Shown: positions 2,684-20,390, numbered from the stretch's first letter. The stretch is 23,843 nt of DNA from a virus (IMGVR_UViG_3300033153_005053:1-23843); one strand, 5' to 3'. Notes: generated from the letters alone by a model not told the origin. Numbers and translations are program-made.

Positions 2684-2695
2684 TTTATTTCCCTC

Positions 2696-4375
2696 CTAAA
2701 CTGCAATTGTATCTTCTTCAAGTGTAACCAATAAAGTATAATCACTTCCCCCTGTTACACCTAAAGTGGAGAATGATCTATACTTTGTATCTCCTGTACT
2801 CGACTTCCTAACCCTAATTTCAATATCCGTAGCACCTCCATTATACGCTTGTTGTGCTATTCCCGTACCCAAAGTATCTTCATTCATTAATTGTGAGCGG
2901 TCACTGATTTTATAAATAGCAACTTGGGCATTTTCAATAGGGTCAGTATTAGTATCCTGCACCGTTACAATTAAATCAATTGCAGTTAAGAATGTAACAG
3001 CAGAACCTTCAGATGAAGCACCATTTGCTGATGGATTACCAGAGTTATTAATAGTAATTGGTTGACCTGAAGAGTTTAGAACATCATCTGTGTTTCCATC
3101 AAACTGTAACCCTACATGGCTATAAGGTGAACTGGTATCATCATCATGTTCAATAGCCGCACCAGTAGTGTTAGAAATGAAGTTACAATATTGAATATTA
3201 ATACTTTCATTCCAAAGTAAAGAAGAGTCTACATCAACGGTATTAATGAAAGAACAATTTCTTAAAATAGGGGCACCAACTGGATCAAATTGAGAACACT
3301 GGTCAAACACAGCAGAATAAGCAAGATGCTGTGCATCATCCCCCATATTTAGCAACCCCGTGCAGTTAACAAATTGGGTGCCGTATAATCTTACTAACGA
3401 ACCAGCATTATTACCACCATATAAATCTAAGCTAATATCCTGATCATCATTACCGATAAATGTTGATCCTGATCTACCTTTATCACTTCCAACTATAACA
3501 CCATCATCAAAAGTAGTAGGGTTTCCTGCACTATCTTCAACGACAATCCCACACGCATCTGTAGGCATAGTTGTAACCCAACCACCACTATAATAATATT
3601 GGGTAGTTCCAAATTGAATAACTTTACCACTATCTGCAAACACGGTATCAACAGATTGTGTACTATCTCCTATCCAAAACTTTCCGAAAGCATAGTAAAC
3701 TCCATCCCTTTCTTGAAGCATCCCCCATGCCCTATTAGGAAAATCAGTGCAGTAAGCTAAAACTTCTTCCCATGCTCCTGAATAAGTTCCGCTATCCCAA
3801 GTTCCGGTAATTCTTAATCCGTTACCTACTGCAATTTGATCTATGAAAATAGACTCTGATCTAACAGAAACATTTGTATCAACCCAAATACCTATAAGGT
3901 TCACGGCACCAACATCAAAGGTTCCTGTGTCAGTTACCGTTCCCGGTAGAGTAGGATCAATCACAAATAATTTCCAACCACCGAACCATCCATTATTATC
4001 ATCTTCACCACATATAACAAAATCTCTATAATCTGTAGTCGAACTACCTATACGAATTGCAAAACCTTTATTAGCAATTGTGTCAAAAGCAGTAGGTGCC
4101 ATCATGTTCAACCAGATATAAATGAATTGCCCTTCTTCATCTCCAGCAGTATCAAAATCAAGAGGGGTGCCCATATTGAAGTAAGTCATTCCGTCCTTGC
4201 TGGCATACTGGCTACCGATAGAAGTAGTGCCATACAGAAACGCATCAGACTGATCTGTGATGCTACCACCACCTAACTCAAGCCAATCATCCGTACCTGT
4301 ACCACCAGTATCATTGGTTGTCTGGTCACAGTTAGCAATTACCCCTTTACCTTCAATCTCTATTGTAAGTGCCAT
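2696..4375 (-). CDS. Virion protein with beta-helix-like core and C-terminal Ig-like domain (559 aa)
   Basis: The first ~250 residues look like a beta-rich, lectin-like N-terminal region (MALTIEIEGKGVIANCDQTT onwards). The middle (about residues 310-430) has short strands punctuated by Asn and Cys, such as QFVNCTGLL, LRNCSFINT and IQYCNFISN, which resemble coils of a right-handed parallel beta-helix. The last ~100 residues (DLIVTVQDTNTDPIENAQVAIYK onwards) resemble a carboxypeptidase-regulatory or Ig-like fold. No signal peptide is present, unlike the beta-helix proteins farther upstream. Its ATG overlaps the stop of the tail-terminator-like gene by one base (TAATG), so it is probably co-translated with it. 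By position it could be the major tail protein or a tail decoration; I do not recognise a tail-tube fold. Confidence 0.72.
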   Translation of the reverse strand: MALTIEIEGKGVIANCDQTTNDTGGTGTDDWLELGGGSITDQSDAFLYGTTSIGSQYASKDGMTYFNMGTPLDFDTAGDEEGQFIYIWLNMMAPTAFDTIANKGFAIRIGSSTTDYRDFVICGEDDNNGWFGGWKLFVIDPTLPGTVTDTGTFDVGAVNLIGIWVDTNVSVRSESIFIDQIAVGNGLRITGTWDSGTYSGAWEEVLAYCTDFPNRAWGMLQERDGVYYAFGKFWIGDSTQSVDTVFADSGKVIQFGTTQYYYSGGWVTTMPTDACGIVVEDSAGNPTTFDDGVIVGSDKGRSGSTFIGNDDQDISLDLYGGNNAGSLVRLYGTQFVNCTGLLNMGDDAQHLAYSAVFDQCSQFDPVGAPILRNCSFINTVDVDSSLLWNESINIQYCNFISNTTGAAIEHDDDTSSPYSHVGLQFDGNTDDVLNSSGQPITINNSGNPSANGASSEGSAVTFLTAIDLIVTVQDTNTDPIENAQVAIYKISDRSQLMNEDTLGTGIAQQAYNGGATDIEIRVRKSSTGDTKYRSFSTLGVTGGSDYTLLVTLEEDTIAV

Positions 4376-4827
4376 TAGGGGTTCTCCCTATCATGTGAAT
4401 ACTCAATCCTACATTCAAGATTGAACATACTTTTATCTTGCATGGATAATACACCCTCATCAGTTGTGATGCTGGTAACCTGTGTGGCATACGCTAGATC
4501 ATCTCTTTCTGGGTCACTCCATAAGACTTTCTTAATATCACCAATTGTATAATTTAGTATTTTATGTGGGTCATTAACATCATGCACATACCCGTAAATC
4601 ATTATGGTGAATTTGCACAGCACTTCTCTGTTAGTTTCATCTTCTAAAGTTTCGGAACCATCACACACAGAAAGATAGGGCATCTGATTAGCATCAACTA
4701 AACCTAATGCTTTTAGCTTTCTATGTACTTGCCTTCCTGCATTTGTTTTATAACCATTGTCAATTAATATTGTTTCTAAATCCGCTACTACACTATCGAC
4801 TATCTGTTGCCTTAAATATTCAGCCAT
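4375..4827 (-). CDS. Tail terminator-like (minor tail protein U type) protein
   Basis: A 150-residue cytoplasmic protein starting MAEYLRQQIVDSVVADLETI. Size, helical N-terminus followed by a mixed alpha/beta body, and its place directly after the gp10-like gene match the tail terminator slot of siphoviruses, where the protein caps the tail tube and contacts the head. The segment TNREVLCKFTIMIYGYV followed by an acidic helix (IGDIKKVLW) is typical of this group in my reading, but no diagnostic motif exists. It starts three bases after the gp10-like stop and ends in a TAATG overlap with the next gene. Assignment rests mainly on gene order. Confidence 0.65.
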   Translation of the reverse strand: MAEYLRQQIVDSVVADLETILIDNGYKTNAGRQVHRKLKALGLVDANQMPYLSVCDGSETLEDETNREVLCKFTIMIYGYVHDVNDPHKILNYTIGDIKKVLWSDPERDDLAYATQVTSITTDEGVLSMQDKSMFNLECRIEYSHDRENP

Positions 4828-4830
4828 ATC

Positions 4831-5400
4831 TTATCCTTTAGATTTTCCGTATTTCTTAAATAAAGTGTCTACATCACTAGCTAATTTTGGAAGCATTGCC
4901 TGTATAGCTGGTGCCATGTACGGACGCTTAGGAATCTTCACACTTTTCTTTAATGCAAACAGTGGACGCTTCAATGCATTTCTACTAGAGGTAAGTTCCC
5001 ATATAATACCATCGTACACTAGCTTACTATCCTTTGGGTAGTCACTAGCCTTTGTACCGATAGACCACTTAAAAGGAATGGTTAATGCTTTAGCTTTCTT
5101 GGGGGTCTGCACACCACCCTCTTCATGTAGCAAAGCATACGGTGCTTCATTCCCACCAGCTAAGAATGCTATTTTATAATCCCACCCCCCGTGTGATTTG
5201 TGAATTTCGTGATGCACAGAATTTCTTAGGTTACCTGTACGCTGGTTAAGTTTACTTTTAATGTTGTCCTTTATCTCACCTTCAGTTCTGAAAGCCCAAT
5301 CAGTAATAGCTTTCTTCATAGCTAAATCAACTTTGCCAAACATATTAGCAAATAATGCTTTAGCTGGTTGAAAACCTTTTACCTTAAAGATAACCCCCAT
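4831..5400 (-). CDS. HK97 gp10-like neck / tail-completion protein
   Basis: A 189-residue protein with the hallmarks of the HK97 gp10 family: a helical N-terminus, RTGNLRNSV at about residues 54-62, then YALLHEEGG at about 88-96 (the family's 'Y...hE.G' signature) and RPYMAPAIQ near 159-167 followed by a C-terminal helix. Such proteins act at the head-tail joint or the tail end. Its ATG overlaps the connector stop codon (TAATG at 5402-5398), and the tail terminator-like gene follows after three bases. This is a normal cluster for HK97-like siphoviruses. Confidence 0.85.
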   Translation of the reverse strand: MGVIFKVKGFQPAKALFANMFGKVDLAMKKAITDWAFRTEGEIKDNIKSKLNQRTGNLRNSVHHEIHKSHGGWDYKIAFLAGGNEAPYALLHEEGGVQTPKKAKALTIPFKWSIGTKASDYPKDSKLVYDGIIWELTSSRNALKRPLFALKKSVKIPKRPYMAPAIQAMLPKLASDVDTLFKKYGKSKG

Positions 5401-5999
5401 TACATTTTCATCCTGATCATAGATGAAAGCATTGAGGTAACCGTGTTGTACACCTTTCCTGCACCCCCGCTGTACACATCATAGGTGACACTATCCCCGT
5501 GCCCGTCAGACCTAGCGGCAATGCCCCAACTTTGTGTGCGTATACTGTTCCATTCACTCGACACTAACAACTTACAGGCTTGCTCTGTAATGTAAGGAAC
5601 AGTATTATACCCACCATCAAATACTACTTTAACATTAGCAACACCACTGACAAACCGGGAAGCAACTAACTCAATAATTCCCTCATCCTCATATACATAA
5701 TAATCAGCGGTGGGGATTAGAGTATCATCACCAAAAACACGGTCAATGTCATCATGCAAAGAAGCAACAGAAATCACAGGGTATTGTTTAAGAACTAACA
5801 TAGAACCTAACCCCGAACCACTAACCTGTTCCGTGAATGTTCTAGCTTTTAACTTGGTCTGTAGTAGTGTATCCTCAATGTAACTGGTAGCTGAATTAAT
5901 TAGGTCTTCCATCTGAACCCTATCAGAAGACGCTGTGCCAGCACCTACATAAGATAAACCAGCAGTTGCAGTTATTAATGCATATTGATCTAGTGCCAT
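5400..5999 (-). CDS. gp6-like head-tail connector protein
   Basis: A 199-residue protein resembling the phage gp6-like head-tail connector family. N-terminal residues form helices that include the typical 'lInsAtsyIE' pattern (LINSATSYIEDTLLQTKL), followed by a beta region with LVLKQYPVISVASL, where a 'yPVisV' strand is common in the family, and a C-terminal helical part (YITEQACKLLVSSEW). Such proteins form the ring below the portal. In most HK97-type genomes this gene follows the capsid gene closely; here about 15 kb of accessory genes separate the two. It overlaps the gp10-like gene by one base. Confidence 0.8.
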   Translation of the reverse strand: MALDQYALITATAGLSYVGAGTASSDRVQMEDLINSATSYIEDTLLQTKLKARTFTEQVSGSGLGSMLVLKQYPVISVASLHDDIDRVFGDDTLIPTADYYVYEDEGIIELVASRFVSGVANVKVVFDGGYNTVPYITEQACKLLVSSEWNSIRTQSWGIAARSDGHGDSVTYDVYSGGAGKVYNTVTSMLSSMIRMKM

Positions 6000-6011: not shown

Positions 6012-6383
6012 TTATTTAATACCTAAAAGTTTTCCTATATATGGTAATATTTGATTACCACCAGCCGCACTTAAAAAGCACAGTAGCAGTATTATTTTCC
6101 AATTATCTTTTACCCAATCAGCTTTTCTAGTTTTTGGTGCTTTACCTAAATCCTCTTGTGCCCGTCTACCATTTGCATTTGCTTGTTTCAATGCTACTTC
6201 AGTTATCCTTCCATGTAATTCTTTTCGACACACAACTGCATTGGCAGAATTTGATTCCCTAAACTCTTTCACCTCTTGTGTTACTGCATCAATACCTTCT
6301 TTTAAATATCCATGCGTCAATTCATTTGTTGCCGCCATTTCTTTTATCTCTGATAATAACATCTGATTAGTAATTTCAGCCAT
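6012..6383 (-). CDS. Small membrane protein with coiled-coil-like N-terminus
   Basis: About 123 residues. I chose the ATG at 6383 (MAEITNQMLLSEIKE) rather than the in-frame GTG at 6395, because the Shine-Dalgarno AGAAGGTG lies nine bases before this ATG and overlaps the GTG. The N-terminal ~70 residues are polar and helical (KEGIDAVTQEVKEFRES, GRITEVALKQANAN). A basic stretch KAPKTRKADWVKDNW then leads into one hydrophobic segment (about residues 95-118: WKIILLLCFLSAAGGNQILPYIGKLL) near the C-terminus. This layout recalls XhlA-type or holin-associated phage proteins, but there is no sequence signature. The role is unknown; lysis is only a possibility. Confidence 0.65.
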   Translation of the reverse strand: MAEITNQMLLSEIKEMAATNELTHGYLKEGIDAVTQEVKEFRESNSANAVVCRKELHGRITEVALKQANANGRRAQEDLGKAPKTRKADWVKDNWKIILLLCFLSAAGGNQILPYIGKLLGIK

Positions 6384-6416
6384 GATATTCCACACCTTCT
6401 TTCAAACACCGTCCTT

Positions 6417-7667
6417 TTAGTAACTAATTAATGTAGCATTTAAATTTCCATGTTCAATTGTAAGTGTTCTTGTACCCGTACTATTTTCACAATACATTTC
6501 AATATACTGATCAGCAGTCACAGCTATAAATCCTGACACTGATGCATCACCAACATTAAGATTAGAAACTGATCTCTGAAATGCTAATGCTTTATCTTTC
6601 GTACCATTTAAAGAAACATAACAATGCACAACTTCTGTTCCTGCTACTGTAGCAATTGAAAAACTAAGTGTACCATCAACCTTATATTTTCCCGCTGTTG
6701 GAAAAGTAAGACGGTTATCTGTAGTAGAATCACAAGTAACACCATCACAGTTATTGTTTGATTCCCATGTTACTTTATATGCTGTATTAGCATCAGTAAT
6801 AGTAATTGCTTGTGGGGTATCATGGGTAAACATAGAACCGTATAAACTATAATCCCTCGCCTTCCATAATGTAGAACCATCCCAATAAATCATATCACCA
6901 GAAGAAGCACCTGATGTGATAGTATTATCTACATCATGCAGTTCATTTACTTCAGCACCGTTAATAGGATTTACTAACATGATCCCGTCATCAGCAGATT
7001 GAAAAAGTATCTTGCCTATATGCACTGCGTGTATAGGTGAGTTAGGTGGTAACCCACATTCAAACTCCCCTGCTGTACCAGATAGCCAAGCAGTAGCACC
7101 AGCAGTACAATTAACATCAGAAGTATCAATGCCTCGTACTAATCCCCATGTAGTTACATAACCACTTTTACCTTCTTCAATAACAGAAGTAGCAACACCA
7201 ACAGCATAACTAAGTTCTTCAATATCGGCATCAGCTAAATCAACAGTGGGCTTGCTTCCTGATGCACCTGTAAGGTACACAACAGACCCATCAGTAATAT
7301 CATAACCAACACTATCATTGAATGCTCTTAATACTACCTCTTGTCCTAACTGTATGTGTGTTCCTGCTTGTTCAGTGTCAAGTTCTAAAGTCTTATCATC
7401 ATCCACCCAATGCACTCTGCCTTCTTTGTGTTCAGGTATAACAGGTTCAGTATCAAAATCAAGAAAGGGCAAACCATCACCACCATTGCTAGTTGCTTCC
7501 CATAAACCAGTAGTAGCATTCCAATATATCAAGGCACTTTCAGTTTGCCCTAATTGTGTTTTAACATCAGCTAAATCTTTCAGCGTGAAAGGCTGGTGTA
7601 TTTGTGCATTACCCAAAATGGGTATGCCCATTCCTATTATGAGTAAAACTAAAATTAGCTTTTTCAT
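6417..7667 (-). CDS. Tail-fibre-like protein with Sec signal peptide and C1q-like C-terminal domain
   Basis: 416 residues. Residues 1-21 are a clear Sec signal peptide (MKKLILVLLIIGMGIPILGNAQ). Then comes a module shared with two neighbours (PFTLKDLADVKTQ...LIYWNATTGLWEA, about 26-58). Residues about 105-235 form a domain I recognise from phage tail fibres: 'V.D.GSVVYLTGASG..PTV..ADAD', 'GYVTTWGLVRGIDTS' and a Pro-rich 'PNSPIHAVHIGKI' strand. A second 'NELHDVD...MIYWDGSTLWKA' copy lies at about 241-270. The C-terminal ~130 residues resemble a C1q/TNF-like jelly roll, with the pattern 'GKYKVDGTLSFSI...VSGFIAVTADQYIEMYCEN'. This architecture suits trimeric receptor binding. The signal peptide is unexpected for a virion fibre assembled in the cytoplasm. 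Confidence 0.82.
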   Translation of the reverse strand: MKKLILVLLIIGMGIPILGNAQIHQPFTLKDLADVKTQLGQTESALIYWNATTGLWEATSNGGDGLPFLDFDTEPVIPEHKEGRVHWVDDDKTLELDTEQAGTHIQLGQEVVLRAFNDSVGYDITDGSVVYLTGASGSKPTVDLADADIEELSYAVGVATSVIEEGKSGYVTTWGLVRGIDTSDVNCTAGATAWLSGTAGEFECGLPPNSPIHAVHIGKILFQSADDGIMLVNPINGAEVNELHDVDNTITSGASSGDMIYWDGSTLWKARDYSLYGSMFTHDTPQAITITDANTAYKVTWESNNNCDGVTCDSTTDNRLTFPTAGKYKVDGTLSFSIATVAGTEVVHCYVSLNGTKDKALAFQRSVSNLNVGDASVSGFIAVTADQYIEMYCENSTGTRTLTIEHGNLNATLISY

Positions 7668-7675
7668 AGCACCAC

Positions 7676-8368
7676 CTAATCAGGTTGCCCACAAGCAGTG
7701 TATGCCATATGAACAGTTTCAATTACAGCATTAGCCGCATAAGTAGCCAGTTCAGCGGTAAGATTACGATTAATAATTATCATTATTTCATCGTGTGCCG
7801 TTAACGGATTATCAGTATCATCATAATCAATAACTGCATATGAAGCTTCAAACCCATGCAGAGTACCCGTACCTACCTGTGTGAAAGCAGTGGTTGCTAC
7901 AGTAGTATTTCCTCCACTAACATCTTCCCCTGCTGATTTAGTTCTGTAAGTAAGATCAAAATAAACATTATCATCTTCAGCCATAGTAGTAGCAGGGAAC
8001 CAGTGAATGTGTAAACTCATATCACTAGCACCATCCCAATCTTCAGGTGTGTGCCATCTAATGTATGCTTCTTCATTTTCAGCGTCAAAACCCAAACCAG
8101 TAGCAGTGCCCTCAATCACTTCATCAGGGGAGTTCTGCCTAAGCCCACCAAGGATATTTAAATCAGTGTGTTTCTCATAGCAGTTAGAAGAACTATTAAT
8201 CCATAACCCTGATGCACTATCCCAAGTAAGCACATCATTATCAACAGCAGTCATTTGTGTTTTTACATTAACTAAATCATTCAATGAAAATGGATGTTGT
8301 ATATCTCCAAAGACATAAAATGGAATTGCTAATCCTATTGCAATCAATACTACAATTAATTTCTTCAT
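7676..8368 (-). CDS. Exported protein with shared N-terminal module and phage-type beta domain
   Basis: 230 residues. Signal peptide at about 1-22 (MKKLIVVLIAIGLAIPFYVF), then the shared module HPFSLNDLVNVKTQMTAVD...VLTWDSASGLW. The remainder is beta-rich with EDWDGASDMSLHIHWFPAT and VYFDLTYRTKSAG, a pattern seen in phage tail or fibre proteins, where a 'H-x-H-W' strand follows a 'DG-S-D' turn. It ends with a Cys (TACGQPD) that could pair with Cys near residue 62. It lies eight bases upstream of the tail-fibre-like gene. Role: probably a fibre-like or surface protein; exact function unknown. Confidence 0.75.
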   Translation of the reverse strand: MKKLIVVLIAIGLAIPFYVFGDIQHPFSLNDLVNVKTQMTAVDNDVLTWDSASGLWINSSSNCYEKHTDLNILGGLRQNSPDEVIEGTATGLGFDAENEEAYIRWHTPEDWDGASDMSLHIHWFPATTMAEDDNVYFDLTYRTKSAGEDVSGGNTTVATTAFTQVGTGTLHGFEASYAVIDYDDTDNPLTAHDEIMIIINRNLTAELATYAANAVIETVHMAYTACGQPD

Positions 8369-8376
8369 ATTATCAC

Positions 8377-8730
8377 CTACGGCATAGTATCAGGAACAAC
8401 AGGTTCAACATCTTCATCCACATACTGATTGCTCATTGCCTTACCAGCAAGCTTAATAAGAGTAGCAACGGAAGTTTTAGCATTAGCAGGAAGGGAGTTG
8501 TAGCCATAACTAACACGGCTATCACCAGCCCTTTTACCAATGTCATCTAATACAATGCCATTAGCAGTTATTGTGGCATCTTCAATGGCAGTCATCCCAC
8601 GATCCCACTTAACAGTAATTACAATCTTTGTAATCTTGGTTGCATTTAAAGTTCTAACCTTAACCGCATAGGCAGTACCAGTTACGAACACTAACAGCGT
8701 GAGAGCAATAATAAACTTTTTCATTTTCAT
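8377..8730 (-). CDS. Small exported hypothetical protein
   Basis: 117 residues with a good Sec signal peptide (MKMKKFIIALTLLVFVTGTAYA, cleavage expected after AYA). The mature part starts VKVRTLNATKITKIVITVKW and is a mixed beta/alpha polypeptide ending in an acidic Pro-rich tail (EDVEPVVPDTMP). I do not recognise a family. A strong Shine-Dalgarno (AAGGAG) supports the start. It sits in the run of exported proteins and ends eight bases before the next one. Confidence 0.72.
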   Translation of the reverse strand: MKMKKFIIALTLLVFVTGTAYAVKVRTLNATKITKIVITVKWDRGMTAIEDATITANGIVLDDIGKRAGDSRVSYGYNSLPANAKTSVATLIKLAGKAMSNQYVDEDVEPVVPDTMP

Positions 8731-8736
8731 TTCTCC

Positions 8737-9846
8737 TTATGGTGTAGCAGTAGCCATTGTTTCCCATTGATAAGTATCACCAGTATTTTTCAAACAAACT
8801 TCAAATGTATCTGCAACACCAGCACCACCAGCGTCATACCACATTTGCCCTTTCATAGTAGCGTCACAAGTAGGTCTGCTTCCTGTATCACCAAGACCAA
8901 GCGAACCATTTATTCTTAACAAGTCATTATCAAACTCACCATAAATTAGAGGGGTATCAGTTGCTGTGTTATCAATATAAAGTTTATTTGATATTACTGT
9001 GCTTGCTGTAGATGGTCCTGCGTTTGATCCAATGATTATGTTGTCATTGGAACCATCTTCAACATTAGCACCGGACATATTCCCAAGGAAAATATTATTA
9101 TCGCCGTCTGAAAGTTCAGCAGTGTACCCCCCTGCCCGATACCCAATACCAATGTTACTGAGAGAACCACTTTGCATCCCAAGGTAATACAACACATCAT
9201 GCCCAATGCCTATGTTGTAATGATCGCCAGTACAAAGTGCCCCAAGTGCTTCGTTACCAATGCCGATGTTTCCGTCAGCATCGTAATTGCCATCAGTACA
9301 CCAACCATCCACCACAGCATTGTAGCCAATTCCTATATTGTCAGAACCGTCTTCTAACTTAGCTATTGCTCCTGTTCCAATCCCAATATTGCCACCACCT
9401 GTGCCATCAATAGACCTGCCAGTATTTTGCCCAATCAATAAGTTGTTTGTTCCCGAAAGAGTGCGTGGATCAGGAATGTTCTCCCCCAGCGAAATATTGT
9501 GTCCTGATTGATCGTACTGGAAGAGCAGTTCCCCATTTATATAAAGTGAACCGGGGAGATTGATAGAGCCAGCTTCAGGTATCGTGATAGTCGAATCCTT
9601 GATCGTGTCTCCAAGGGTTCCATCCCATAAAACAAGTGCATCATCTGTAGATGATACAGGACCAGAAATACCACCACCAACCGCACCATCTTCCCATAAC
9701 TTTGTAGTGTCATTCCATACGATGCCTTCACCATCAGATTGCTCCATTGTAGTTTTTACATTTGACAACTCATGCAAAGAAAGAAGTGGAGGTTGTGCAA
9801 ATGCCAAACTAGGAATCAGCAGTAAAGTTAAAATTAATTTCTTCAT
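8737..9846 (-). CDS. Exported YadA-head-like / tail-fibre-like repeat protein
   Basis: 369 residues. Signal peptide MKKLILTLLLIPSLAFAQ, then the shared module LLSLHELSNVKTTM...GIVWNDTTKLWED (about 21-53), then ISGPVSSTDDALVLWDGTLG, a linker common in phage fibres. Residues about 135-275 hold eight turns of a YadA-head-like repeat (NLLIG, NIGIG five times, NIFLG, NIIIG) with Gly-rich spacers. Next come NKLYIDNT...PLIYGEFDNDLLRING, a frequent cap to such repeats, and a C-terminal module with two cysteines (PTCDATMKGQMWYDAGG...FEVCLKN). The fold should be a trimeric left-handed beta-roll, usually seen in adhesins and phage fibres. As with its neighbours, an export signal on such a protein is odd. 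Confidence 0.82.
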   Translation of the reverse strand: MKKLILTLLLIPSLAFAQPPLLSLHELSNVKTTMEQSDGEGIVWNDTTKLWEDGAVGGGISGPVSSTDDALVLWDGTLGDTIKDSTITIPEAGSINLPGSLYINGELLFQYDQSGHNISLGENIPDPRTLSGTNNLLIGQNTGRSIDGTGGGNIGIGTGAIAKLEDGSDNIGIGYNAVVDGWCTDGNYDADGNIGIGNEALGALCTGDHYNIGIGHDVLYYLGMQSGSLSNIGIGYRAGGYTAELSDGDNNIFLGNMSGANVEDGSNDNIIIGSNAGPSTASTVISNKLYIDNTATDTPLIYGEFDNDLLRINGSLGLGDTGSRPTCDATMKGQMWYDAGGAGVADTFEVCLKNTGDTYQWETMATATP

Positions 9847-9848
9847 TG

Positions 9849-10331
9849 TTAATACTCCTTATGGCAATCAAGGCATAGCAAAGTAAAATCTGCATTCTGC
9901 CCTTCCTGTGCAGTGTATAATCTCAACATATTACTTTCACTATTATCAGTATGAACATCGTGGCAAGTGGAACATTTTATCTTCCCATCAAATAAAGGCA
10001 GTGTAGTAGGTATAGACTTTTCGGATGGTTCCATTCCATAAGGATGTGAAATTCCTAAATCAACTTTTATCAAAGTTCCAAGTTCGTTTTCTATTTCTAT
10101 ATCACCTTCCCGACTATGGCAGGAAGTACATAGCAATTCTTCATTAGCTTTTAAACCTACAAGTGTAATTTCATTTTCAATAATATGGCATACACCACAA
10201 CCACCATCGACATAGTGTGGTGTTTCCTTTTGCATAGTACGGTACATTTCAAAACTGAAATAAGTTAAACCAGCAAGTAGGATAATTCCGGTGCTTGCTA
10301 TCAATCCCTTTTTATATATTTTAGTATTCAT
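9849..10331 (-). CDS. Membrane-anchored tetraheme cytochrome c (doubled CxxCH type)
   Basis: 160 residues. An N-terminal hydrophobic segment (about 10-30, LIASTGIILLAGLTYFSF) would act as signal anchor, leaving the rest outside the cytoplasmic membrane. Four CxxCH heme-attachment motifs are visible: CGVCH (45-49), CTSCH (68-72), CSTCH (120-124) and CLDCH (153-157). The last pair matches the doubled-CxxCH arrangement (CSTCHDVHTDN...LLCLDCHK). Extra His residues (GISHPYG, CHDVH) could be distal heme ligands. By family it would carry electrons at the periplasmic face and would depend on the host's cytochrome c maturation system. It has its own Shine-Dalgarno (AAGGGGA) and lies in the middle of the exported-protein run. 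Partner and substrate are unknown. Confidence 0.9.
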   Translation of the reverse strand: MNTKIYKKGLIASTGIILLAGLTYFSFEMYRTMQKETPHYVDGGCGVCHIIENEITLVGLKANEELLCTSCHSREGDIEIENELGTLIKVDLGISHPYGMEPSEKSIPTTLPLFDGKIKCSTCHDVHTDNSESNMLRLYTAQEGQNADFTLLCLDCHKEY

Positions 10332-10340
10332 AATATCCCC

Positions 10341-11576
10341 TTATGGTATCACCATTCCACCAGTACCAATTATTGGATTTAAACTTATAGGAAAAAATTT
10401 ACTGATAGGATTCATACCACCACTAGCACCACCACCGTAAAAATGGAACCCAATATCTAACGCTCCTGAATCAAACACACCACTAATTTCTGTATGGCTA
10501 GTATCTAATCCAACAGATGAAGCTGAAATATCTGCCATATCAATAGCAGGAGATAAAGCACCTAAATGCCTTTCATCAAAAAGAGATTCAGCATAAGTAT
10601 CATCGTGTGTACCATATACAGGATCACTTGTAGAATTGTTGGCACCACTATTCCAATTTGTAGTTCCGTTATATGTTATGTTGTAATTATTTCTGCTATT
10701 GCCAGATGCGGTAATGTTTGTAGGGCAATTAGAAATAATGTTGTAATATATATCTGCATATATATTATTGGAATCTTTTATTCCAATAGTGGAAGCAACA
10801 TTATTACAATCTATCGTATTGTATTTTATTACTGATGTTCCTGCAATTCTTGTATCTATTCTTATACCAGTACCATTAACAAAAATATTATTCAGCACAT
10901 GAGTAAAGGATGCATTATCGGCATCATTAGTAACATATACTCCACCATAAGTAGTGCTTGCTCCGGTTAAATCAAAATAACTATTAGAAATAGTAAGTTC
11001 ATTTCTAATCGCTTCACCAAGACCAGCCCCATCAACAAAAGAAAAATATGCCCTACCTTTTGTATTTGTATCATCAAAATAATTCTGATCAATTATTAAG
11101 TTCACTTGCCTTCCAGAACTACTATTGATACAAGCCCCAGTAGCATACCCACAGTAACGATGATAAAATCCCTGCAATCGTGTTTGCACTGTAATAGGGG
11201 TAGTATTGCCAAACGAAAACTGGTGTCCATAAGTAGTATCAGGAGAACCATAACCAGTAATACATTCAGCAGAAGTATCCGCACCAATAGTATTATCACG
11301 GCAATCTGTTGTGTATATCCAATTATCAGGAGTACCATCAGAAAGCATTTGAGCATCATTAGCAGTAAAAGTAATAGTTCTCATAATTGTTGATTGTTCA
11401 AATTTGATAATTGCTCCCGCTTCTACAGTAACAGTGGTGCTAATATTTACGCTTGCAGTAAGAACATAAGTTTCACCTGATACCCATGTTTCAGGAACAG
11501 TGATAGTTCCACTTTTAGTTTCATAACCAAAAGCTAAAGATGGAAACAGCAAAAGTAAAATTAAAAATTTTTTCAC
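10341..11576 (-). CDS. Exported right-handed beta-helix protein, copy B
   Basis: 411 residues, starting at a GTG that overlaps the upstream stop (GTGA, 11576-11573). Signal peptide MKKFLILLLLFPSLAFGYE, then WVSGETYVLTASVNISTTV with 'VEAGAIIKF'. This 'y.l...i.v..g..LtI..G..Ikf' start is usual for secreted beta-helix proteins. Strand-turn repeats rich in Asn follow (NELTISNSYFDLT, VIKYNTIDCNN, IYYNIISNCPTN). The C-terminus contains ISGVFDSGALDIGFHFYGG and then the tail PISKFFPISLNPIIG. It is clearly paralogous to the adjacent upstream gene at both ends but diverged in the middle. It may bind or act on a polysaccharide; no catalytic site is evident. Confidence 0.8.
   Translation of the reverse strand: MKKFLILLLLFPSLAFGYETKSGTITVPETWVSGETYVLTASVNISTTVTVEAGAIIKFEQSTIMRTITFTANDAQMLSDGTPDNWIYTTDCRDNTIGADTSAECITGYGSPDTTYGHQFSFGNTTPITVQTRLQGFYHRYCGYATGACINSSSGRQVNLIIDQNYFDDTNTKGRAYFSFVDGAGLGEAIRNELTISNSYFDLTGASTTYGGVYVTNDADNASFTHVLNNIFVNGTGIRIDTRIAGTSVIKYNTIDCNNVASTIGIKDSNNIYADIYYNIISNCPTNITASGNSRNNYNITYNGTTNWNSGANNSTSDPVYGTHDDTYAESLFDERHLGALSPAIDMADISASSVGLDTSHTEISGVFDSGALDIGFHFYGGGASGGMNPISKFFPISLNPIIGTGGMVIP
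10345..10415 (-). repeat. Direct repeat coding the shared C-terminal tag (copy in beta-helix B)
   Basis: 71 bases encoding the last 23-24 residues of beta-helix protein B. By eye they differ at about nine positions from 11577-11647 in the neighbouring gene. The matching is much tighter than in the body of the two genes. Confidence 0.75.
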
Positions 11577-12865
11577 GGTATCACCATCGTGCCAGCACCA
11601 ATTATTGGATTTAAACTTATTGGGAAAAACTTACTGATAGGCTTCATAGCACTACCAGCACCAGCAGTAAAATAATGAAAACCTAAATCAAGAGTACCAC
11701 TATCATTCACCCCGTCATCAGTAGCGTGTTTACCATCAAGCCCTGCTAATGTTGCGGTAGTGCTTCCTGCATCAATAGCATTTGAAGAAACACCTAAATG
11801 ATAATCATCTGCCCATACAGGTGTGTATGTTCCAGCGTGTTCTTGAAAGTCTGGTGTGGTAGTTATTTCTGATGCTACTTTAACCCATGTAGCACTGTAA
11901 TCTGTTCCATTGTTGTAAGCTAAATTGTTGTAATGCTTTCCAGTAGGTATATCAAAAACAAGAGCATTAAATCCTGCTCCACACCCTTGTACAATGTTAT
12001 CTGAAATCTGTATATTAGGAATTGTTCCATGAGTATAGAAATAAAATCCAGTTCCTGTATGTCCTGCGTTATTACAAACAATAGTATTATTGTTTATAGT
12101 GAATGAAACATTTGCATTATCTCTGCTTTCCAAATATAAAAAATGGGCATCAGAAGATGATTCTGTTATGAACAAATTATTTTCAATTATAAAAATATCT
12201 TCAGTTCCAGCATAACGCATACCAAAATCCATTTGTCTAGCAGAGGTATCATCTCCAGTATAACTATCATGGATAATATTATTTTTAAATATAAAAGTAG
12301 TTACACCAGCATCAGGAGCAAGATTATGTGCTATTAAATAATTGGATGTACAAGCAAGGTCTTGAAAATCACGCACAATACTATTCTGCATATTAAATGT
12401 AAAGTTTGGATTAGCACTCATATAAAAAGAACTAACACCACCAACATATGAAAATTCAGTGTAGTTAATTGTAACACTTGGTTCAGTTGCTCCTGCTATA
12501 TTAACAACAGCAATATCACAATTTGTAACAGCAACATCATCACAAGACGCATGATCAGTTACATCTGCACCTACACTTTTATCAGCACATGAAGTCCAGT
12601 ACACAGGATTTGCTTGTGTGCCATTAACAGAGAGAGTATCATATACATTTATTCTTCTGCCTGATGCAATGCCTGTATTGAATATCTTTATTATTGCACC
12701 ATCTTGAATTGTTAAAGAGTTACCATCAGAAATAGTAAGGGCAACTTGAAGAAGGTATGTTTCTCCAGATACCCAAACTTCATCACCAATAATACTCCCC
12801 CCTTCAACTTCATAGCCAAAAGCTAAAGATGGAAACAGCAATAGTATAAGTAAAAGTTTTTTCAT
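11573..12865 (-). CDS. Exported right-handed beta-helix protein, copy A
   Basis: 430 residues from the ATG at 12865, which overlaps the upstream stop (ATGA). An in-frame start 12 codons farther upstream exists but would add a non-signal extension (residues before MKKLLLILLLF), so I rejected it. The signal peptide MKKLLLILLLFPSLAFGYE is almost the same as in copy B. It is followed by WVSGETYLLQVALTISDGNSLTIQDGAIIKI. The central region has beta-helix-like turns (FNMQNSIVRDF, IIENNLFITES, FTINNNTIVCNN, IQISDNIVQGC). The C-terminus is VNDSGTLDLGFHYFTAG plus the tail PISKFFPISLNPIIG. Tandem duplication with copy B is evident. Surface or extracellular carbohydrate binding is plausible but not shown. 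Confidence 0.8.
   Translation of the reverse strand: MKKLLLILLLFPSLAFGYEVEGGSIIGDEVWVSGETYLLQVALTISDGNSLTIQDGAIIKIFNTGIASGRRINVYDTLSVNGTQANPVYWTSCADKSVGADVTDHASCDDVAVTNCDIAVVNIAGATEPSVTINYTEFSYVGGVSSFYMSANPNFTFNMQNSIVRDFQDLACTSNYLIAHNLAPDAGVTTFIFKNNIIHDSYTGDDTSARQMDFGMRYAGTEDIFIIENNLFITESSSDAHFLYLESRDNANVSFTINNNTIVCNNAGHTGTGFYFYTHGTIPNIQISDNIVQGCGAGFNALVFDIPTGKHYNNLAYNNGTDYSATWVKVASEITTTPDFQEHAGTYTPVWADDYHLGVSSNAIDAGSTTATLAGLDGKHATDDGVNDSGTLDLGFHYFTAGAGSAMKPISKFFPISLNPIIGAGTMVIP
11577..11647 (-). repeat. Direct repeat coding the shared C-terminal tag (copy in beta-helix A)
   Basis: 71 bases encoding the conserved C-terminal tail of beta-helix protein A, the partner of 10345-10415. The most conserved run codes for FFPISLNPIIG. 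Confidence 0.75.
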
Positions 12866-13665
12866 TGTACCGTCACAGGTAATACAGCAGTTGAAAACCA
12901 AGCATCAGAAACCGCTTGTGCAAGGTGATCCTTAGAACCTCCACCCTCAAACAAAACATTTCTTACAACTTCAGAATCACCATTAGCATCTACTGCTTGG
13001 GATTCATAAATGTCGAAGTCTTTAGTGCTTCCTTTGAATTTAATGAGAGTAGAAAATTCAGCAGTGGTTCCATCCCACTCACCACTATCAGTATGGATAG
13101 CATGACCAGTGCTTTTTAACTCATGCCAGAAAGCAAGGTAAACAGTTTGTGTATAAGAATGAGTAGCCCAACCAGCAATGCTAGAAATTACATAGCTAAC
13201 AGAAGGACCACTAACACCAGAAGTAATGATAGCATTCACATTAGGATAGATAGAAGTGTAGGTAATAGTATCACCATCAATACTAATATTAGATGTATCA
13301 GCAGAAGGGTCAACAGCACTAAATTGTGAAGTCTCCTGCTCGAAATAATACACACCACCAAAACTAAAAGTGGTGCTTAACCCATCTCTGGTGTAGGTAA
13401 TGTCACCACTACCTTTATTCAATGACCATGCAATCGGTGCGGTAGTAACATCATAAGTAGTAGTATTATCAACTACAGCTTTGTTGCTCTTTTTCCAAGT
13501 ACCATCATTGTAATTTATACCATCACCTTTTATTGTGTAGGTAGGTGTGGTAGTAGTCCATTCATTAACAATAGTTTCTTGTGCAAAAGACTTCCCACAT
13601 AGGAACCCTATTACTAAAAAGAAACATATGAAAAAAAGGAATAGTTTATCCTGCACATTTAGCAT
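12862..13665 (-). CDS. Exported hypothetical beta-rich protein
   Basis: About 267 residues from ATG 13665 (MLNVQDKLFLFF). The Shine-Dalgarno AGGAAGG is placed correctly for this ATG, while an in-frame GTG three codons upstream overlaps it. Signal peptide with a long hydrophobic core ending GKSFAQE. The mature part has GDITYTRDGLSTTFSFGGVYYF, then ITYTSIYPNVNAIIT and a C-terminal FSTAVLPVTVQ. These resemble the 'Y-x-x-[IV]-YP-x-[IV]-x' and 'aa.yPVt.d' motifs of bacterial surface proteins, a weak similarity from memory. No enzyme motif. It is translationally coupled to the first beta-helix gene by an ATGA overlap. Confidence 0.72.
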   Translation of the reverse strand: MLNVQDKLFLFFICFFLVIGFLCGKSFAQETIVNEWTTTTPTYTIKGDGINYNDGTWKKSNKAVVDNTTTYDVTTAPIAWSLNKGSGDITYTRDGLSTTFSFGGVYYFEQETSQFSAVDPSADTSNISIDGDTITYTSIYPNVNAIITSGVSGPSVSYVISSIAGWATHSYTQTVYLAFWHELKSTGHAIHTDSGEWDGTTAEFSTLIKFKGSTKDFDIYESQAVDANGDSEVVRNVLFEGGGSKDHLAQAVSDAWFSTAVLPVTVQ

Positions 13666-13679
13666 AATAAACACCTTCC

Positions 13680-14072
13680 TTATGGAGCGGTATATTTAGG
13701 AGCGTATAAGGTAACCGTAGTAGATTCACCACTAGCACAAATTAAACTAATAGCGGCATTAGTAAAAGGGGAAAAGTTCATAGTCATATCAGCATAGATA
13801 GGCATATCAGTAATAGCGGCTGTACCACCAGTAAAATCTATAAAGGCAGTAGAAGAACCAGAATTGTAAATACTAAGTTCTCTGGTTACCATAGGTGCCC
13901 ATGTAATAGTAGTATTAGTATCGGCAACTGCTACAACAGTAAATTGAACAGCATTAGATGTAGGAGATTGTGCCCGTACTTCACCGGGGGGATAAGTACA
14001 ATATAAACCTAACCCAAGCATACAACCAGTTAGAACTACAACACCAAAGATTTTAAACAAATTTTTTTTCAT
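13680..14072 (-). CDS. Small exported beta-sandwich-like protein
   Basis: 130 residues with an N-terminal basic-hydrophobic leader (MKKNLFKIFGVVVLTGCMLG). VLTGC fits a lipobox, but VRAQS at about 32-36 is also a plausible signal peptidase I site, so lipoprotein or soluble export cannot be separated. The mature part is short beta strands with LSIYNSGSSTAFIDFTGGTA and ISLICASGESTTVTLYA, a pattern I associate with small phage decoration-like beta sandwiches. First of nine consecutive exported products, just after the sulfotransferase. Strong Shine-Dalgarno (GAGGAG). Confidence 0.72.
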   Translation of the reverse strand: MKKNLFKIFGVVVLTGCMLGLGLYCTYPPGEVRAQSPTSNAVQFTVVAVADTNTTITWAPMVTRELSIYNSGSSTAFIDFTGGTAAITDMPIYADMTMNFSPFTNAAISLICASGESTTVTLYAPKYTAP

Positions 14073-14077: not shown

Positions 14078-14662
14078 TTACTCCTCATAGTTAAATGCAA
14101 TAAGCATAGCCATAAGATAGCTATTTACTCTAGCAGTTAAAGCATCTGGAAATCTAGCTTTCCATGTTCCTATTTTACCATTGTTTGTTATATGCCGTCC
14201 ATGTATCTGTGTTTTCTTATCATGCTCCTTAAAACTGGTGAAAGTATCAGCAATCTTTTTGTTTTCTTTAATTGAATGTTTAACTGCAATGTTATTAGCC
14301 TGTTCTTCAGATAAATCTGCTCTAACTAATTCAGCTATCCGCTTCACTAGCTGTGCTTCATTTCCCCCAAAGTAATCTTCATATCTTATCAGGTGATGCT
14401 GACCACTAAAGTATCGTGCCTGTAGTAGCTGTAAATGCCTCTTACGCTGTACAAATAAAGTAATGAAGGCTTCCTCTAGGGTTATGTCAAAAGCACCAGC
14501 ATAGGAGCATATAGCATCCCGTGGATCACGGTAAGTTGCTAATGCTATCATGTTATTAGCAGGGGTATAGAAACCATGCACTTTAGTTGTATTACCAAAC
14601 TCTTTAGCAACTTGCCACACAAAGGTAGAGCCAGCCCGTTCCATTCCAGTTACTACAAACAT
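14078..14662 (-). CDS. PAPS-dependent sulfotransferase-like protein
   Basis: About 194 residues. Starting at ATG 14662 gives MFVVTGMERAGSTFVW and the same TAATG overlap used elsewhere in this operon; an in-frame GTG at 14668 would add two residues. The 5'-phosphosulfate-binding loop GMERAGSTF (about 6-14), the 3'-phosphate motif YRDPRDAICS (about 44-53, equal to RxPxDxxxS) and the C-terminal GKIGTWKARF (GxxGxWK type) are all present. By family it transfers sulfate from PAPS to a sugar or other acceptor in the cytoplasm. It is shorter than typical sulfotransferases (about 250-300 aa), with little between the conserved blocks. Last gene of the glycan cassette; a sulfated glycan is the likely product. 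Confidence 0.85.
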   Translation of the reverse strand: MFVVTGMERAGSTFVWQVAKEFGNTTKVHGFYTPANNMIALATYRDPRDAICSYAGAFDITLEEAFITLFVQRKRHLQLLQARYFSGQHHLIRYEDYFGGNEAQLVKRIAELVRADLSEEQANNIAVKHSIKENKKIADTFTSFKEHDKKTQIHGRHITNNGKIGTWKARFPDALTARVNSYLMAMLIAFNYEE

Positions 14663-15498
14663 TACCACCGTGCCCCAAGCATATAGTAATTATTCTTAGG
14701 GGTAGCCTGTAAAAATGTTAGCTTAGTTTTTGCAAAGCTGGGGTGGTCAATGTCGAGCATTTGAAAGTACCGCATATTATCATAGTTTCCAAAATCCTTT
14801 TGGAAAGCTACTTGCATATACTTAATGCCGTTTAGTTTCTGGAAGACTGCATTTCGTAATTCAATAGGTGCTTCACTCAGTGACCAGTTAGCAATTAAAG
14901 CGGCATTAATATCTAACAGTGTTTTCTCTTCATGCATCTGCTCCACATCAGTCACATACCACACACCATCAACACCGCAAGACTCTAGGTAATACTTCTG
15001 TAGTGCAGAGGTAATAGGAGTGTCAATAAGAATGTATTGCCCTGTAAAACCTAATGCATGAATCAACCTACACATACAACCGTAGCCCCCACCAAACTCA
15101 AATACCATTTCTAAATTATGAACATAATCTTTCATGTAGCTTTCCATAACATATATGCTATACACTTGGTGTATCAAGTTAGGTGAAGTGCTAGGATCAA
15201 TACGGCTTCTAGTCGGTGCCCCAACATTACACTCATGTAAAACTGACTGCCAGCGTTTCCATTGTGAACTTGCTTTTAGTAATTCATATTCTTTTCTAAT
15301 GTAAGGAGTATCAGCAGGAACAAACATGGTGTATTGAATAACATCCCATTGCAGAAACTTAGATATGTCACTATGCATAATGTGTTGCTGGATGTGGGCA
15401 TTATTAGTTTCCCAAATACGGTCACTACCATCAGTCTTAGCATCTAGGATTTGTACAGTGTTTACTAATGTTTCTTCTAGTTCCTGCATCCTTTTCAT
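14662..15498 (-). CDS. Putative sugar O-methyltransferase-like SAM enzyme
   Basis: 278 residues. A class I SAM-binding loop is visible at about 132-140 (VFEFGGGYG), followed by GQYILIDTP as the acidic strand-2 region. The long N-terminal part (SQWKRWQSVLHECNVGAPTRS, NLIHQVYSIYVMESYM) and the overall length resemble the putative sugar O-methyltransferase family found in glycan clusters. It overlaps the preceding glycosyltransferase (ATGA) and the sulfotransferase (TAATG). It probably methylates the sugar made by the cassette. Substrate and position unknown. Confidence 0.78.
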   Translation of the reverse strand: MKRMQELEETLVNTVQILDAKTDGSDRIWETNNAHIQQHIMHSDISKFLQWDVIQYTMFVPADTPYIRKEYELLKASSQWKRWQSVLHECNVGAPTRSRIDPSTSPNLIHQVYSIYVMESYMKDYVHNLEMVFEFGGGYGCMCRLIHALGFTGQYILIDTPITSALQKYYLESCGVDGVWYVTDVEQMHEEKTLLDINAALIANWSLSEAPIELRNAVFQKLNGIKYMQVAFQKDFGNYDNMRYFQMLDIDHPSFAKTKLTFLQATPKNNYYMLGARW

Positions 15499-16454
15499 AA
15501 TAGCCCTACTTTCTTAAACACCGTATTAAACCGCTGTTCCCAAGTGTGATCTTTTATACATCTGTTATACCCAGCTTCTCTAATTGCATTTCTGGCTTCT
15601 GTGTTCTCTGCATAGTATTTGCAAATGTCAATTAACTCAGTAAGGTTATTAGGATCAAATGTAACTACTTCTTTTCCAATTTCAAACAAGGTTCCTAAAT
15701 CTTCAAACTCTTCTGATAATGATAGCCCCGCCAGTGCAGTAACCTCGAAATCCCTTAACCTAATTTGCTTCATGTGTGTATTAGATATTTCAGCATTCCC
15801 AATTCCTCTAGGAATAATATTCACAGCAGTTTCACTTACCATCTTAAACATGGTAGGAAAAGACACACCGCTTGACATTGAAATAGATAGGTTACCTTGA
15901 TCCCGTAAGTACAACATTAAATTTGAACGGTAGCCATATATCCTGCCAACCAACCCCACATCAAAATGTGGTCTAACACTCATATCAGGTATATAGAAAT
16001 CAGGGTTAATTGCTAGTGGGGTATACAAAGCATTAGCCCCCAACTGTGCAAAGTATTCTAGTGTGCATCTATCAACCGTCCATGTAACATCAAACTGATT
16101 AGCAATTAATGTGTTAGCCCTTTTAAACGAACCAACATTATTACAGCCAAAGTTCATGCAATACACACCACTACTTTTTATTTCTTCAACAGCCCATGTA
16201 GTAGTATTAACATCAGAAAGATAACCAAAGAAAAGATCAAAAGGTTTTTCTGCATGATTCTTTTTAAACTGTTCGACCATCTCTACATTCATATCACTTT
16301 TATCAGTAATTTTCCAATCAGGATTATATTCACTATACCCGTAATCACCCCAATCAAACCAAACAACATCAAACATATTTTGTAGCGTCCAGATTAGGTT
16401 AGGTTTTTCCCAATCAGTATCATGGAGTGCAACAAATATTCTTAGCTTCTTCAT
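15495..16454 (-). CDS. CgeB-like glycosyltransferase (GT-B, second copy)
   Basis: 319 residues with GT-B organisation: an N-terminal Rossmann half (KKLRIFVALHDTDW... DLFFGYLSDVNTT), a linker at about 150-165 (FYIPDMSVRPHFDVGLVG) and a C-terminal half with IRLRDFEVTALAGLSLSEEF, IDICKYYAEN and AIREAGYNRCIKDHTWEQRF (about 230-312). The last blocks match the CgeB-like 'R.fE..a.G......f..l' and 'G......HtW..R' signatures. The usual Glu-rich sugar-donor motif is only partly kept (RDFEVTALAGLSL). Adjacent to a related glycosyltransferase through a TAATG overlap. Donor and acceptor unknown. Confidence 0.82.
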   Translation of the reverse strand: MKKLRIFVALHDTDWEKPNLIWTLQNMFDVVWFDWGDYGYSEYNPDWKITDKSDMNVEMVEQFKKNHAEKPFDLFFGYLSDVNTTTWAVEEIKSSGVYCMNFGCNNVGSFKRANTLIANQFDVTWTVDRCTLEYFAQLGANALYTPLAINPDFYIPDMSVRPHFDVGLVGRIYGYRSNLMLYLRDQGNLSISMSSGVSFPTMFKMVSETAVNIIPRGIGNAEISNTHMKQIRLRDFEVTALAGLSLSEEFEDLGTLFEIGKEVVTFDPNNLTELIDICKYYAENTEARNAIREAGYNRCIKDHTWEQRFNTVFKKVGLL

Positions 16455-17404
16455 TAGTATCCTCTAGTGTGGTCATAATAAACATGAGGGGTATGAGGGG
16501 AATCAACAACCCCGCCCCACTGGTAGGAACTCTGCACCCTGTTAAAAGATAAATCTTTGAATATAGTTTTTAACCGTGCTTCCCAAGTATGCCCCCCAAT
16601 AGTTTGGTGACCGTTTCTAGCAATCTCTTCCCGTGCCTCATCATGGCTAAGGTAATGCCGCACAATATTAACCATATCAATTTTGTCTCGGTACATTTCA
16701 AGATGCACCCCCGGTACAAAATCCTGTGCAACAAACTTATTATAGTTTGTAACTAAGAAACTTCCACACGCTAAAGTTTCTGGTATCCTTAACTGCATAC
16801 CTCTATCAAAAGAACCGTAGTTAAAAACTATCTTGCTCCTGCAAGTCATATCACGCAGTTCATCTAGGTAGGCAGAGCCAACAACAATGTTAGCCCCCGG
16901 CATCTGCTGTTTTAGGTATCCTAAGTATTCCCCTCTTTGGCTATGCATTGCCCCGATAAATAGCACATCAATATCTTTCTCACACTTCACTTTACTAAAC
17001 TGCTCAATGTCAACACCACTAGGAAGGTAAGAAGCTGATTGCCCGAACAGTTGCCCCATCACTGGTGCATTCTCTGCAATCACTGTGTACCACTTATCAA
17101 AGTGCCCTGCATGATAATTACAATCCCTGAATGCGTGTTCATATCTTAGATCATCTGGATACCACATTACTTTAGGGTAAGGTAGCTTTGATAAGTCCTC
17201 GACATTAACACCGCTTCCTTTCCACATCAAGAGTGCATCAGCCTCATCAGGGAAATGCATCTGACCATGATCCCGCCTGAAATCATAATCTCTCATGATG
17301 TTACAACCAAGATTTTCTAATGCTTTAAAGATGAAGTTACCCGTGCCCCAACCTTCATTGCTAAACCGTGCAGTGATCAATACAATATTTCTAAATTCCA
17401 TCAT
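16454..17404 (-). CDS. CgeB-like glycosyltransferase (GT-B, first copy)
   Basis: 316 residues. The N-terminal half contains NEGWGTGNFIFKALENLG, then LLMWKGSGV and VMWYPDDL. The linker and C-terminal half have DIDVLFIGAMHSQR, IVFNYGSFDRG, LRIPETLACGSFLVTN (about 205-220) and IARNGHQTIGGHTWEARL. This is a good match to the CgeB-like glycosyltransferase pattern 'R.pE.laCG.fl.t......F..g.h' and 'G....H.W..R'. Two consecutive Met codons open the gene (17404, 17401); the Shine-Dalgarno AGGGGG suits the second slightly better. It follows the GT4 gene by six bases. A cytoplasmic sugar transferase acting in the cassette. Confidence 0.85.
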   Translation of the reverse strand: MMEFRNIVLITARFSNEGWGTGNFIFKALENLGCNIMRDYDFRRDHGQMHFPDEADALLMWKGSGVNVEDLSKLPYPKVMWYPDDLRYEHAFRDCNYHAGHFDKWYTVIAENAPVMGQLFGQSASYLPSGVDIEQFSKVKCEKDIDVLFIGAMHSQRGEYLGYLKQQMPGANIVVGSAYLDELRDMTCRSKIVFNYGSFDRGMQLRIPETLACGSFLVTNYNKFVAQDFVPGVHLEMYRDKIDMVNIVRHYLSHDEAREEIARNGHQTIGGHTWEARLKTIFKDLSFNRVQSSYQWGGVVDSPHTPHVYYDHTRGY

Positions 17405-17410
17405 TGCCCC

Positions 17411-20234: not shown

Positions 20235-20242
20235 AAAACAAC

Positions 20243-20269: not shown

Positions 20270-20316
20270 ATTGATTTTATTAGGGAAAGTTTTTTGTTAA
20301 AAAGTAAAGAAAAGAC

Positions 20317-20345: not shown

Positions 20346-20390
20346 ATGTACATGAACACACACACTAACAACGAAACAGGGGGAAACGAA

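Follow-up and report, generated by a model that had tools for sequence, protein, structure and literature searches.

Nine consecutive genes with predicted export leaders, among them fibre-type proteins and a tetraheme cytochrome, within the structural gene string of a tailed phage

Phage fibres are taken to act on the virion only, and the locus described here raises the question of why a phage would encode a run of proteins, several of them fibre-like, that begin with signals for export from the host cytoplasm. The window, meaning the whole stretch of DNA that was analysed, corresponds to an entire IMG/VR viral record (23,843 bases). Almost all of its genes lie on the minus strand, in the order prohead protease, capsid, glycan-modifying genes, a block of nine contiguous genes (E1 to E9), adaptor, neck and terminator genes, and presumed tail genes (Table 1).

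Table 1. Features of the window, listed in the order of the minus strand (slashes mark predicted cleavage points)
Feature	Coordinates	Strand	Product and evidence
HK97-type prohead protease	22668-23591	-	TIGR01543, 75 bits
HK97-type major capsid protein	21130-22644	-	TIGR01554, 65.6 bits
Glycosyltransferase genes	15495-16454, 16454-17404, 17411-18529, 18891-20135	-	Pfam Glyco_trans_1_2, Glycos_transf_1; Glycos_transf_2 with TPR
Small ORF	18529-18891	-	among the glycosyltransferase genes (15495-20135), upstream part of the string
Putative sugar O-methyltransferase	14662-15498	-	TIGR04371, 1.6e-8, below cut-off; same string
Sulfotransferase	14078-14668	-	Pfam Sulfotransfer_1, 34.8 bits; same string
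E1	13680-14072	-	130 aa, predicted exported; possible lipobox LTGC or cleavage VRA/QS
E2	12862-13674	-	270 aa, predicted exported; hydrophobic core, SFA/QE
E3	11573-12865	-	430 aa, predicted exported, beta-strand rich; paralog of E4
E4	10341-11576	-	411 aa, predicted exported; paralog of E3
E5	9849-10331	-	tetraheme c-type cytochrome, predicted membrane-anchored; CGVCH, CTSCH, CSTCH, CLDCH
E6	8737-9846	-	predicted exported fibre: leader, stalk module, YadA-like NIGIG repeats; phrog_4636
E7	8377-8730	-	117 aa, predicted exported; AYA/VK cleavage site
E8	7676-8368	-	leader and stalk as in E9 and E6, unrelated distal part
E9	6417-7667	-	predicted exported fibre: leader, stalk, GYVTTWGLVRGIDTS domain, C1q-like C-terminus
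Small protein	6012-6395	-	membrane segment at the C-terminus; gene lies between E9 and the connector
Head-tail adaptor, neck and tail terminator genes	4375-5999	-	phrog_442, phrog_5, phrog_3907; Phage_tail_terminator_7; downstream end of the string
Two presumed tail proteins	188-4375	-	559 and 831 aa, no family match in Pfam or PHROG; terminal genes of the string

Gene order and export leaders of the block

From the first glycosyltransferase gene (position 20135) to the last tail gene (position 188), 22 genes form an unbroken string whose 21 gaps range from -7 to +21 nt, and E1 to E9 sit inside it, with the glycosyltransferase genes upstream and the head-tail connector and tail genes downstream. 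Strong terminator-like hairpins, at about 21.1, 20.7 and 20.25 kb, all precede the string. Because the string is shared with connector and tail genes, E1 to E9 are probably late genes; judging from gene order, they are most likely produced late in infection, alongside the connector and tail proteins. The tightness of the string also argues against separately expressed cargo, and the promoter and terminator of its own that would mark a moron were not found for the nine-gene block.

All nine products have a strongly hydrophobic N-terminus, either a leader or an anchor. Signal peptides were called with a home-made rule (10-residue mean hydropathy of at least 2.4, a net positive start and a cleavage-like site), which was passed by eight of the nine products and by no other gene in the window. 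E2 misses the rule on start charge alone, having a neutral start, a strong hydrophobic core and a cleavage site of the SFA/QE type (MFIMLNVQDKLFLFFICFFLVIGFLCGKSFA/QE); the features of a Sec signal peptide (positive start, hydrophobic core, cleavage site) were thus recognised by rule in eight products and by eye in E2. Textbook cleavage sites are present in E3, E4, E6 and E7, the leaders of E6 and E3 being MKKLILTLLLIPSLAFA/Q and MKKLLLILLLFPSLAFG/YE, respectively. Applied to genes that precede the capsid gene in related phages, the same rule was passed by 13 of 219; in nine other phage loci it was passed by one of 75. These base rates are approximate, since ORF calls in the GC-rich relatives are rough. 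At a base rate of about 5% per gene, a run of eight or nine passing genes has a probability of about 1e-10, so that eight of nine passing is not chance. Export of the proteins of the block is therefore a well-supported prediction from their leaders. The original prediction of a leader or anchor on every product from 14072 down to 6417 proved real, with the quoted leader sequences in place.

Fibre-type proteins, their neighbours and the cytochrome

Homology to virion fibres was found for E6 and E9, and not for E1, E2 or E7. E6 matches the PHROG tail spike family phrog_4636 (1.7e-9) and the fibre of a T4-like phage (L011, 6e-17). Residues ~60-400 of E9 match phage tail fibres (best 6e-22), and its C-terminus gives a weak BclA_C/C1q-like match (6.7e-4, below cut-off). 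The homolog with the best coverage of E9, a 390-residue Manatee Spring phage protein (UOF82836), has an identical domain order and no leader; its N-terminal ~65 residues have no counterpart in E9, where they are replaced.

Similarity among E6, E8 and E9 is confined to the N-terminal ~60 residues, comprising leader and stalk (E = 2.5e-13 for E8-E9, with 1.7e-7 and 6.4e-5 for the other comparisons); beyond these the three are unrelated. In this shared part silent differences exceed replacements (pS of 0.63, 0.64 and 0.53 vs. pN of 0.35, 0.32 and 0.36), suggesting that the leader and stalk are being preserved. At least three fibre-type products had been claimed; homology bears this out for E6 and E9, whereas E8 is fibre-like in its first 60 residues only. 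The view that export leaders are unusual on fibre proteins held up as well, with 13 of the 14 checked homologs of E9, E6 and an exported fibre of a related phage (L023) being leaderless. These comprise L003-L010, L011 and the fibres of E. coli phage P817, pelagiphage HTVC112P, Methylophilales phage Venkman and Flavobacterium phage immuto. Among cellular organisms, Bacteroidota probably encode many exported tail-fibre-like proteins. No cellular relatives of E6 or E9 were found in 81 and 297 sampled genomes, PDB sequence searches with either protein were empty, and a Pfam search of E6 returned neither a YadA-type C-terminal membrane anchor nor any other family.

Among the remaining products, E3 (whose start is an ATG within a longer TTG ORF) and E4 share 40% identity, with the leader and the C-terminal 24 residues in common and a middle that has drifted. 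Both are beta-strand rich, and a beta-helix is suspected for E3, for which a PDB fold search gave no significant match; the AlphaFold models of E2 and E3 were of low confidence. E1, E2 and E7 have no known relatives: E1 had no match in Pfam, PHROG or INPHARED, and E2 none in phages. E1 may be a lipoprotein, as its possible lipobox suggests; no other product of the block carries the lipobox of a small Llp/Cor-type lipoprotein.

E5, whose cytochrome nature the original prediction had missed, scores above the Pfam cut-offs for Paired_CXXCH_1 (PF09699; 40.4 bits, cut-off 20.6) and Cytochrome_C7 (28.6 bits, cut-off 24.8). Its four CXXCH motifs exceed the two that were required, along with a profile above cut-off, for calling a multiheme cytochrome, and four such motifs arose in none of 20000 shuffled versions of E5. 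The protein falls below every named NCBIfam cytochrome cut-off (NrfH, TmcA, CctA and DmsE types; TIGR01905, 21.6 vs. 25.2). Its N-terminus looks like an uncleaved anchor rather than a cleaved leader. Maturation of c-type cytochromes is possible on the periplasmic side only, and E5 therefore fits export. No relatives of E5 were found among 50,697 phage records, among 81 Calditrichota-group genomes (threshold 1e-8) or in a PDB sequence search; weak matches (E of ~1e-9 to 1e-11) occur in 6 of 395 genomes of another phylum, and cellular doubled-CXXCH homologs show 27-38% identity. A search of open-access literature text returned no description of a phage multiheme cytochrome, and a tetraheme cytochrome encoded by a phage within a structural operon is unusual in itself.

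Predicted exported proteins near the head genes of relatives and in phage PAU

With the major capsid protein of the window as the query, 52 related viral loci were found, together with seven loci in binned genomes of Poribacteria, Proteobacteria, Abyssobacteria, Omnitrophota, Calditrichota, Armatimonadota and Planctomycetota, the host being assigned by binning only. Homologs of the first glycosyltransferase lie behind the capsid gene in 10 related loci. One relative (L048) encodes five proteins in a row, between the capsid gene and the head-tail adaptor, that are exported according to the rule. Other relatives have such genes near the head genes as well: L061 encodes three predicted exported proteins, L019 (which is the contig of Calditrichota L067), L036 and L044 encode two apiece, and L014, L023, L042 and L043 encode one. 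Additionally, a Calditrichota contig (L078) has one between the capsid gene and the adaptor, and an Abyssobacteria contig (L079) encodes a predicted exported protein of 717 aa directly before the protease and capsid genes. Two of these proteins are fibres by content: that of L036 matches a tail-fibre PHROG (2.4e-10), and that of L023 has YadA-like repeats and a cap in common with cyanophage structural proteins. The exported protein of L014 gives a weak Phage_cement_2 match (0.017).

The exported payloads of different relatives are barely related to one another, and two exported families, common to the pairs L048/L044 and L043/L042, turned up nowhere else. Scans of IMG/VR with E5, E3/E4 and E6/E8/E9 for close relatives of the block returned none, or a leaderless fibre only, and the relative closest by its glycosyltransferases (L030) has no exported block in the sequence covered. 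Family-wide, genes passing the rule are not significantly enriched downstream of the capsid gene (21 of 242 vs. 13 of 219 upstream, p=0.29). The nine-gene window is an extreme case within the capsid-protein family, not the norm.

An exported fibre of this sort is also predicted in a cultured phage. Gene product 257 of phage PAU (JQ362498, 181144-183153; 669 residues) has a textbook leader (TFA/Q), YadA-like repeats and a C-terminal cap that is also present in the exported fibre of L023 (51% over 80 residues). Its direct similarity to E6 is slight, suggesting that it is the same kind of exported fibre rather than an ortholog. The PAU host strain, HER1398, is a Sphingobacterium (PMC3738902), and passages of a paper on the PAU capsid (PMC5646251) make no statement on gp257. 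This recurrence, like the operon-like continuity of the block with glycan-modifying and tail genes, lay outside the original prediction.

Proposed role, alternatives and comparison with known systems

Our preferred explanation, which we offer tentatively and rate as somewhat short of probable, is a late envelope cassette: its fibre heads, beta-rich proteins and cytochrome would be placed at or within the host envelope, beside glycan-modifying enzymes, and would mask or alter receptors. The phage would be a tailed phage of a Gram-negative-type host, with the cassette encoded between the capsid gene and the connector and tail genes. During virion assembly in the cytoplasm, the Sec pathway would carry eight of the proteins across the inner membrane, to the periplasm or farther out. 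Among these, at least E6 and E9 would be fibre shafts and heads in which a signal peptide replaces the usual N-terminal part, with the fibres ending up at the surface or in the medium; E3 and E4 would add beta-strand-rich paralogs, and E5 would sit in the inner membrane by its anchor, on the periplasmic side. Surface glycans would be altered by the glycosyltransferases, methyltransferase and sulfotransferase encoded next to the block. With fibre heads off the virion and glycan-altering enzymes encoded alongside, occupying or changing receptors is the simplest suggestion: the receptors of the phage and its competitors may be occupied, masked or changed, leading to superinfection exclusion, and progeny may be prevented from adsorbing to the dying cell or to cell debris. 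Surface display or release, with receptor blocking, decoys or an extracellular matrix as possible roles, had been suggested in the original prediction.

Counting for this explanation are the leaders on all nine products, eight of them by the rule against a base rate of ~5%, the shared leader and stalk under selection, the leaderless homologs, the 22-gene string and the recurrence. Counting against it, a Pfam search gave no outer-membrane anchor for the fibres, so surface display would need a further outer-membrane export step; late expression would be late for superinfection exclusion; receptor masking does not account for a cytochrome; and the family-wide test gave p=0.29, L030 is without an exported block, and the leaders were called by a home-made rule. 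E5 fits this explanation and its rivals poorly and is the least explained part of the block. An unlikely variant is that the phage builds a late extracellular or periplasmic structure of its own from secreted fibre heads, beta-rich proteins and the tetraheme cytochrome, either as a coat on the dying cell or as parts that decorate virions after lysis.

The position of such genes beside head genes in several relatives, with the 717 aa protein of L079 directly before protease and capsid genes, the weak cement match in L014 and the string shared with connector and tail genes, could instead indicate that the exported proteins are virion parts, which fold in the periplasm (with disulphides or heme) and join heads or tails once lysis mixes cytoplasm and periplasm. 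To our knowledge, periplasm-folded virion parts have no precedent in tailed phages, and E6, E8 and E9 have no N-terminal docking domain such as their homologs have; a membrane-anchored cytochrome also fits poorly, and we regard this possibility as rather unlikely. A similarly low probability is given to cargo for host ecology, in which adhesins, matrix proteins and an electron-transfer cytochrome would help the infected or lysogenic cell to attach, aggregate or respire. In its favour, adhesive modules are present in the form of YadA-like repeats and C1q-like ends, cellular homologs of the doubled-CXXCH cytochrome exist, and glycan genes share the string; however, gaps of up to 21 nt leave no space for a promoter, which sets the block apart from a lysogenic-conversion gene, the 23,843-base fragment contains no integrase or lysogeny gene, and the sampled cellular genomes hold no homologs of E6 and E9.

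The remaining alternatives are weaker still. An exported set that aids lysis or virion release at the outer membrane or a surface layer, like spanins or exported endolysins, would agree with the probable late timing and with known Sec-exported phage proteins being mostly lysis proteins (PMC6116005). It is improbable, as Pfam and PHROG place no hydrolase, endolysin or spanin family among E1 to E9, and fibre and cytochrome domains do not point to lysis. The original prediction had offered leaders as virion membrane anchors as another option. E5, and perhaps E1, look like anchors; most of the nine carry cleavable-looking signal peptides, with textbook sites in four, and an HK97-type virion has no membrane, which makes uncleaved anchors in a virion-associated membrane less likely. 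The string is unbroken and matches arrangements on other contigs, which argues against an assembly artefact, and we consider either of these readings very improbable.

If fibres are indeed retargeted in bulk through the host Sec pathway, receptor-binding heads would also be tools against competitors or for control of the host surface, genes annotated as tail fibres would need a check for leaders, and fibre repertoires in metagenomes could not simply be read as host range. With PAU, a cultured phage is already available on which the basic question can be tested.

Exported, phage-coded exclusion proteins of the T5 Llp, Cor and Sie types are encoded near receptor-binding genes. These are small lipoproteins made early or in lysogens, whereas the products described here are large fibre-like proteins of a probable late operon. 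Known tail fibre and spike proteins (UOF82836, gp44 of Acinetobacter phage phiAC-1 and the T4-like L011 fibre) are homologous to E9 and E6 over most of their length and share the same distal domains, but have ordinary, leaderless N-terminal parts in place of the signal peptide and common stalk of E6, E8 and E9. Trimeric autotransporter adhesins of the YadA family combine a signal peptide with YadA-like head repeats as E6 does, and differ in their C-terminal membrane anchor domain, which E6 lacks. E5 resembles the doubled-CXXCH multiheme cytochromes of anaerobic bacteria in its Pfam score, four heme motifs and N-terminal anchor, and is unlike them in its place in a phage structural operon and in falling below the named NCBIfam cut-offs. 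Sec-exported endolysins (Lys44 of fOg44 and SAR endolysins; PMC6116005) use the host Sec pathway late in infection, as is proposed here, but are lytic enzymes, none of which occurs among E1 to E9. A parallel in kind, gp257 of Sphingomonas (Sphingobacterium) phage PAU, likewise has a signal peptide and YadA-like repeats and lies near structural genes, although PAU is another type of phage and has one such gene compared with nine here. In agreement with the original prediction that no such system had been described, no description of exported fibre cassettes was found in open-access literature text. Overall, exported lysis enzymes, small exclusion lipoproteins and fibres on virions were known before, and the predicted exported fibre-type cassette with its tetraheme cytochrome appears to be new.

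Heme and other redox genes

The structural operon also encodes a tetraheme c-type cytochrome (E5), of whose seven histidines three lie outside the heme motifs. Another pairing of a fibre gene with a redox-annotated gene is seen in the Manatee Spring phage (L003), in which the closest homolog of the exported fibre E9 adjoins such a gene.

Shared tail and capsid region

The C-terminal tail common to the paralogs E3 and E4 is strongly constrained, with replacement differences (pN) of 0.07 vs. silent differences (pS) of 0.39, and is possibly a targeting or anchoring signal. The capsid protein scored 22.4 bits against Zn_Ribbon_1, slightly under the cut-off; paired CxxC motifs also begin the capsid protein of a Calditrichota contig (L078). 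Homologs of the glycosyltransferase occupy the equivalent position in approximately 10 related phage loci.

Features of the window and of compared loci
Feature	Position	Strand	Remarks
High potential iron-sulfur protein (annotation)	L003:5308-5715		just downstream of closest E9 homolog
Tetraheme cytochrome E5	9849-10331	minus	
E3/E4 tail, 24 residues	10341-10415; 11573-11647	minus	PISKFFPISLNPIIGxGxMVIP
Family 2 glycosyltransferase fused to TPR repeats	18891-20135		directly after capsid gene
Two ORFs (the next two rows) amid three strong terminator-like hairpins	within 20239-21116	plus	capsid gene-glycosyltransferase interval
Cysteine-rich ORF	20334-20693	plus	same interval
Second ORF	20743-21069	plus	same interval
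HK97-type major capsid protein	21130-22644		zinc-ribbon-like start, MKCKKCENELIEGVKFCAECGTKVE
gp257	L099:31144-33153		phage PAU; annotated "gp257" only

Leaders in phage PAU

A leader, with a cysteine, is also present on gp233 of phage PAU. Judged from its sequence, PAU gp257 is a predicted exported fibre-like protein from a cultured jumbo phage.
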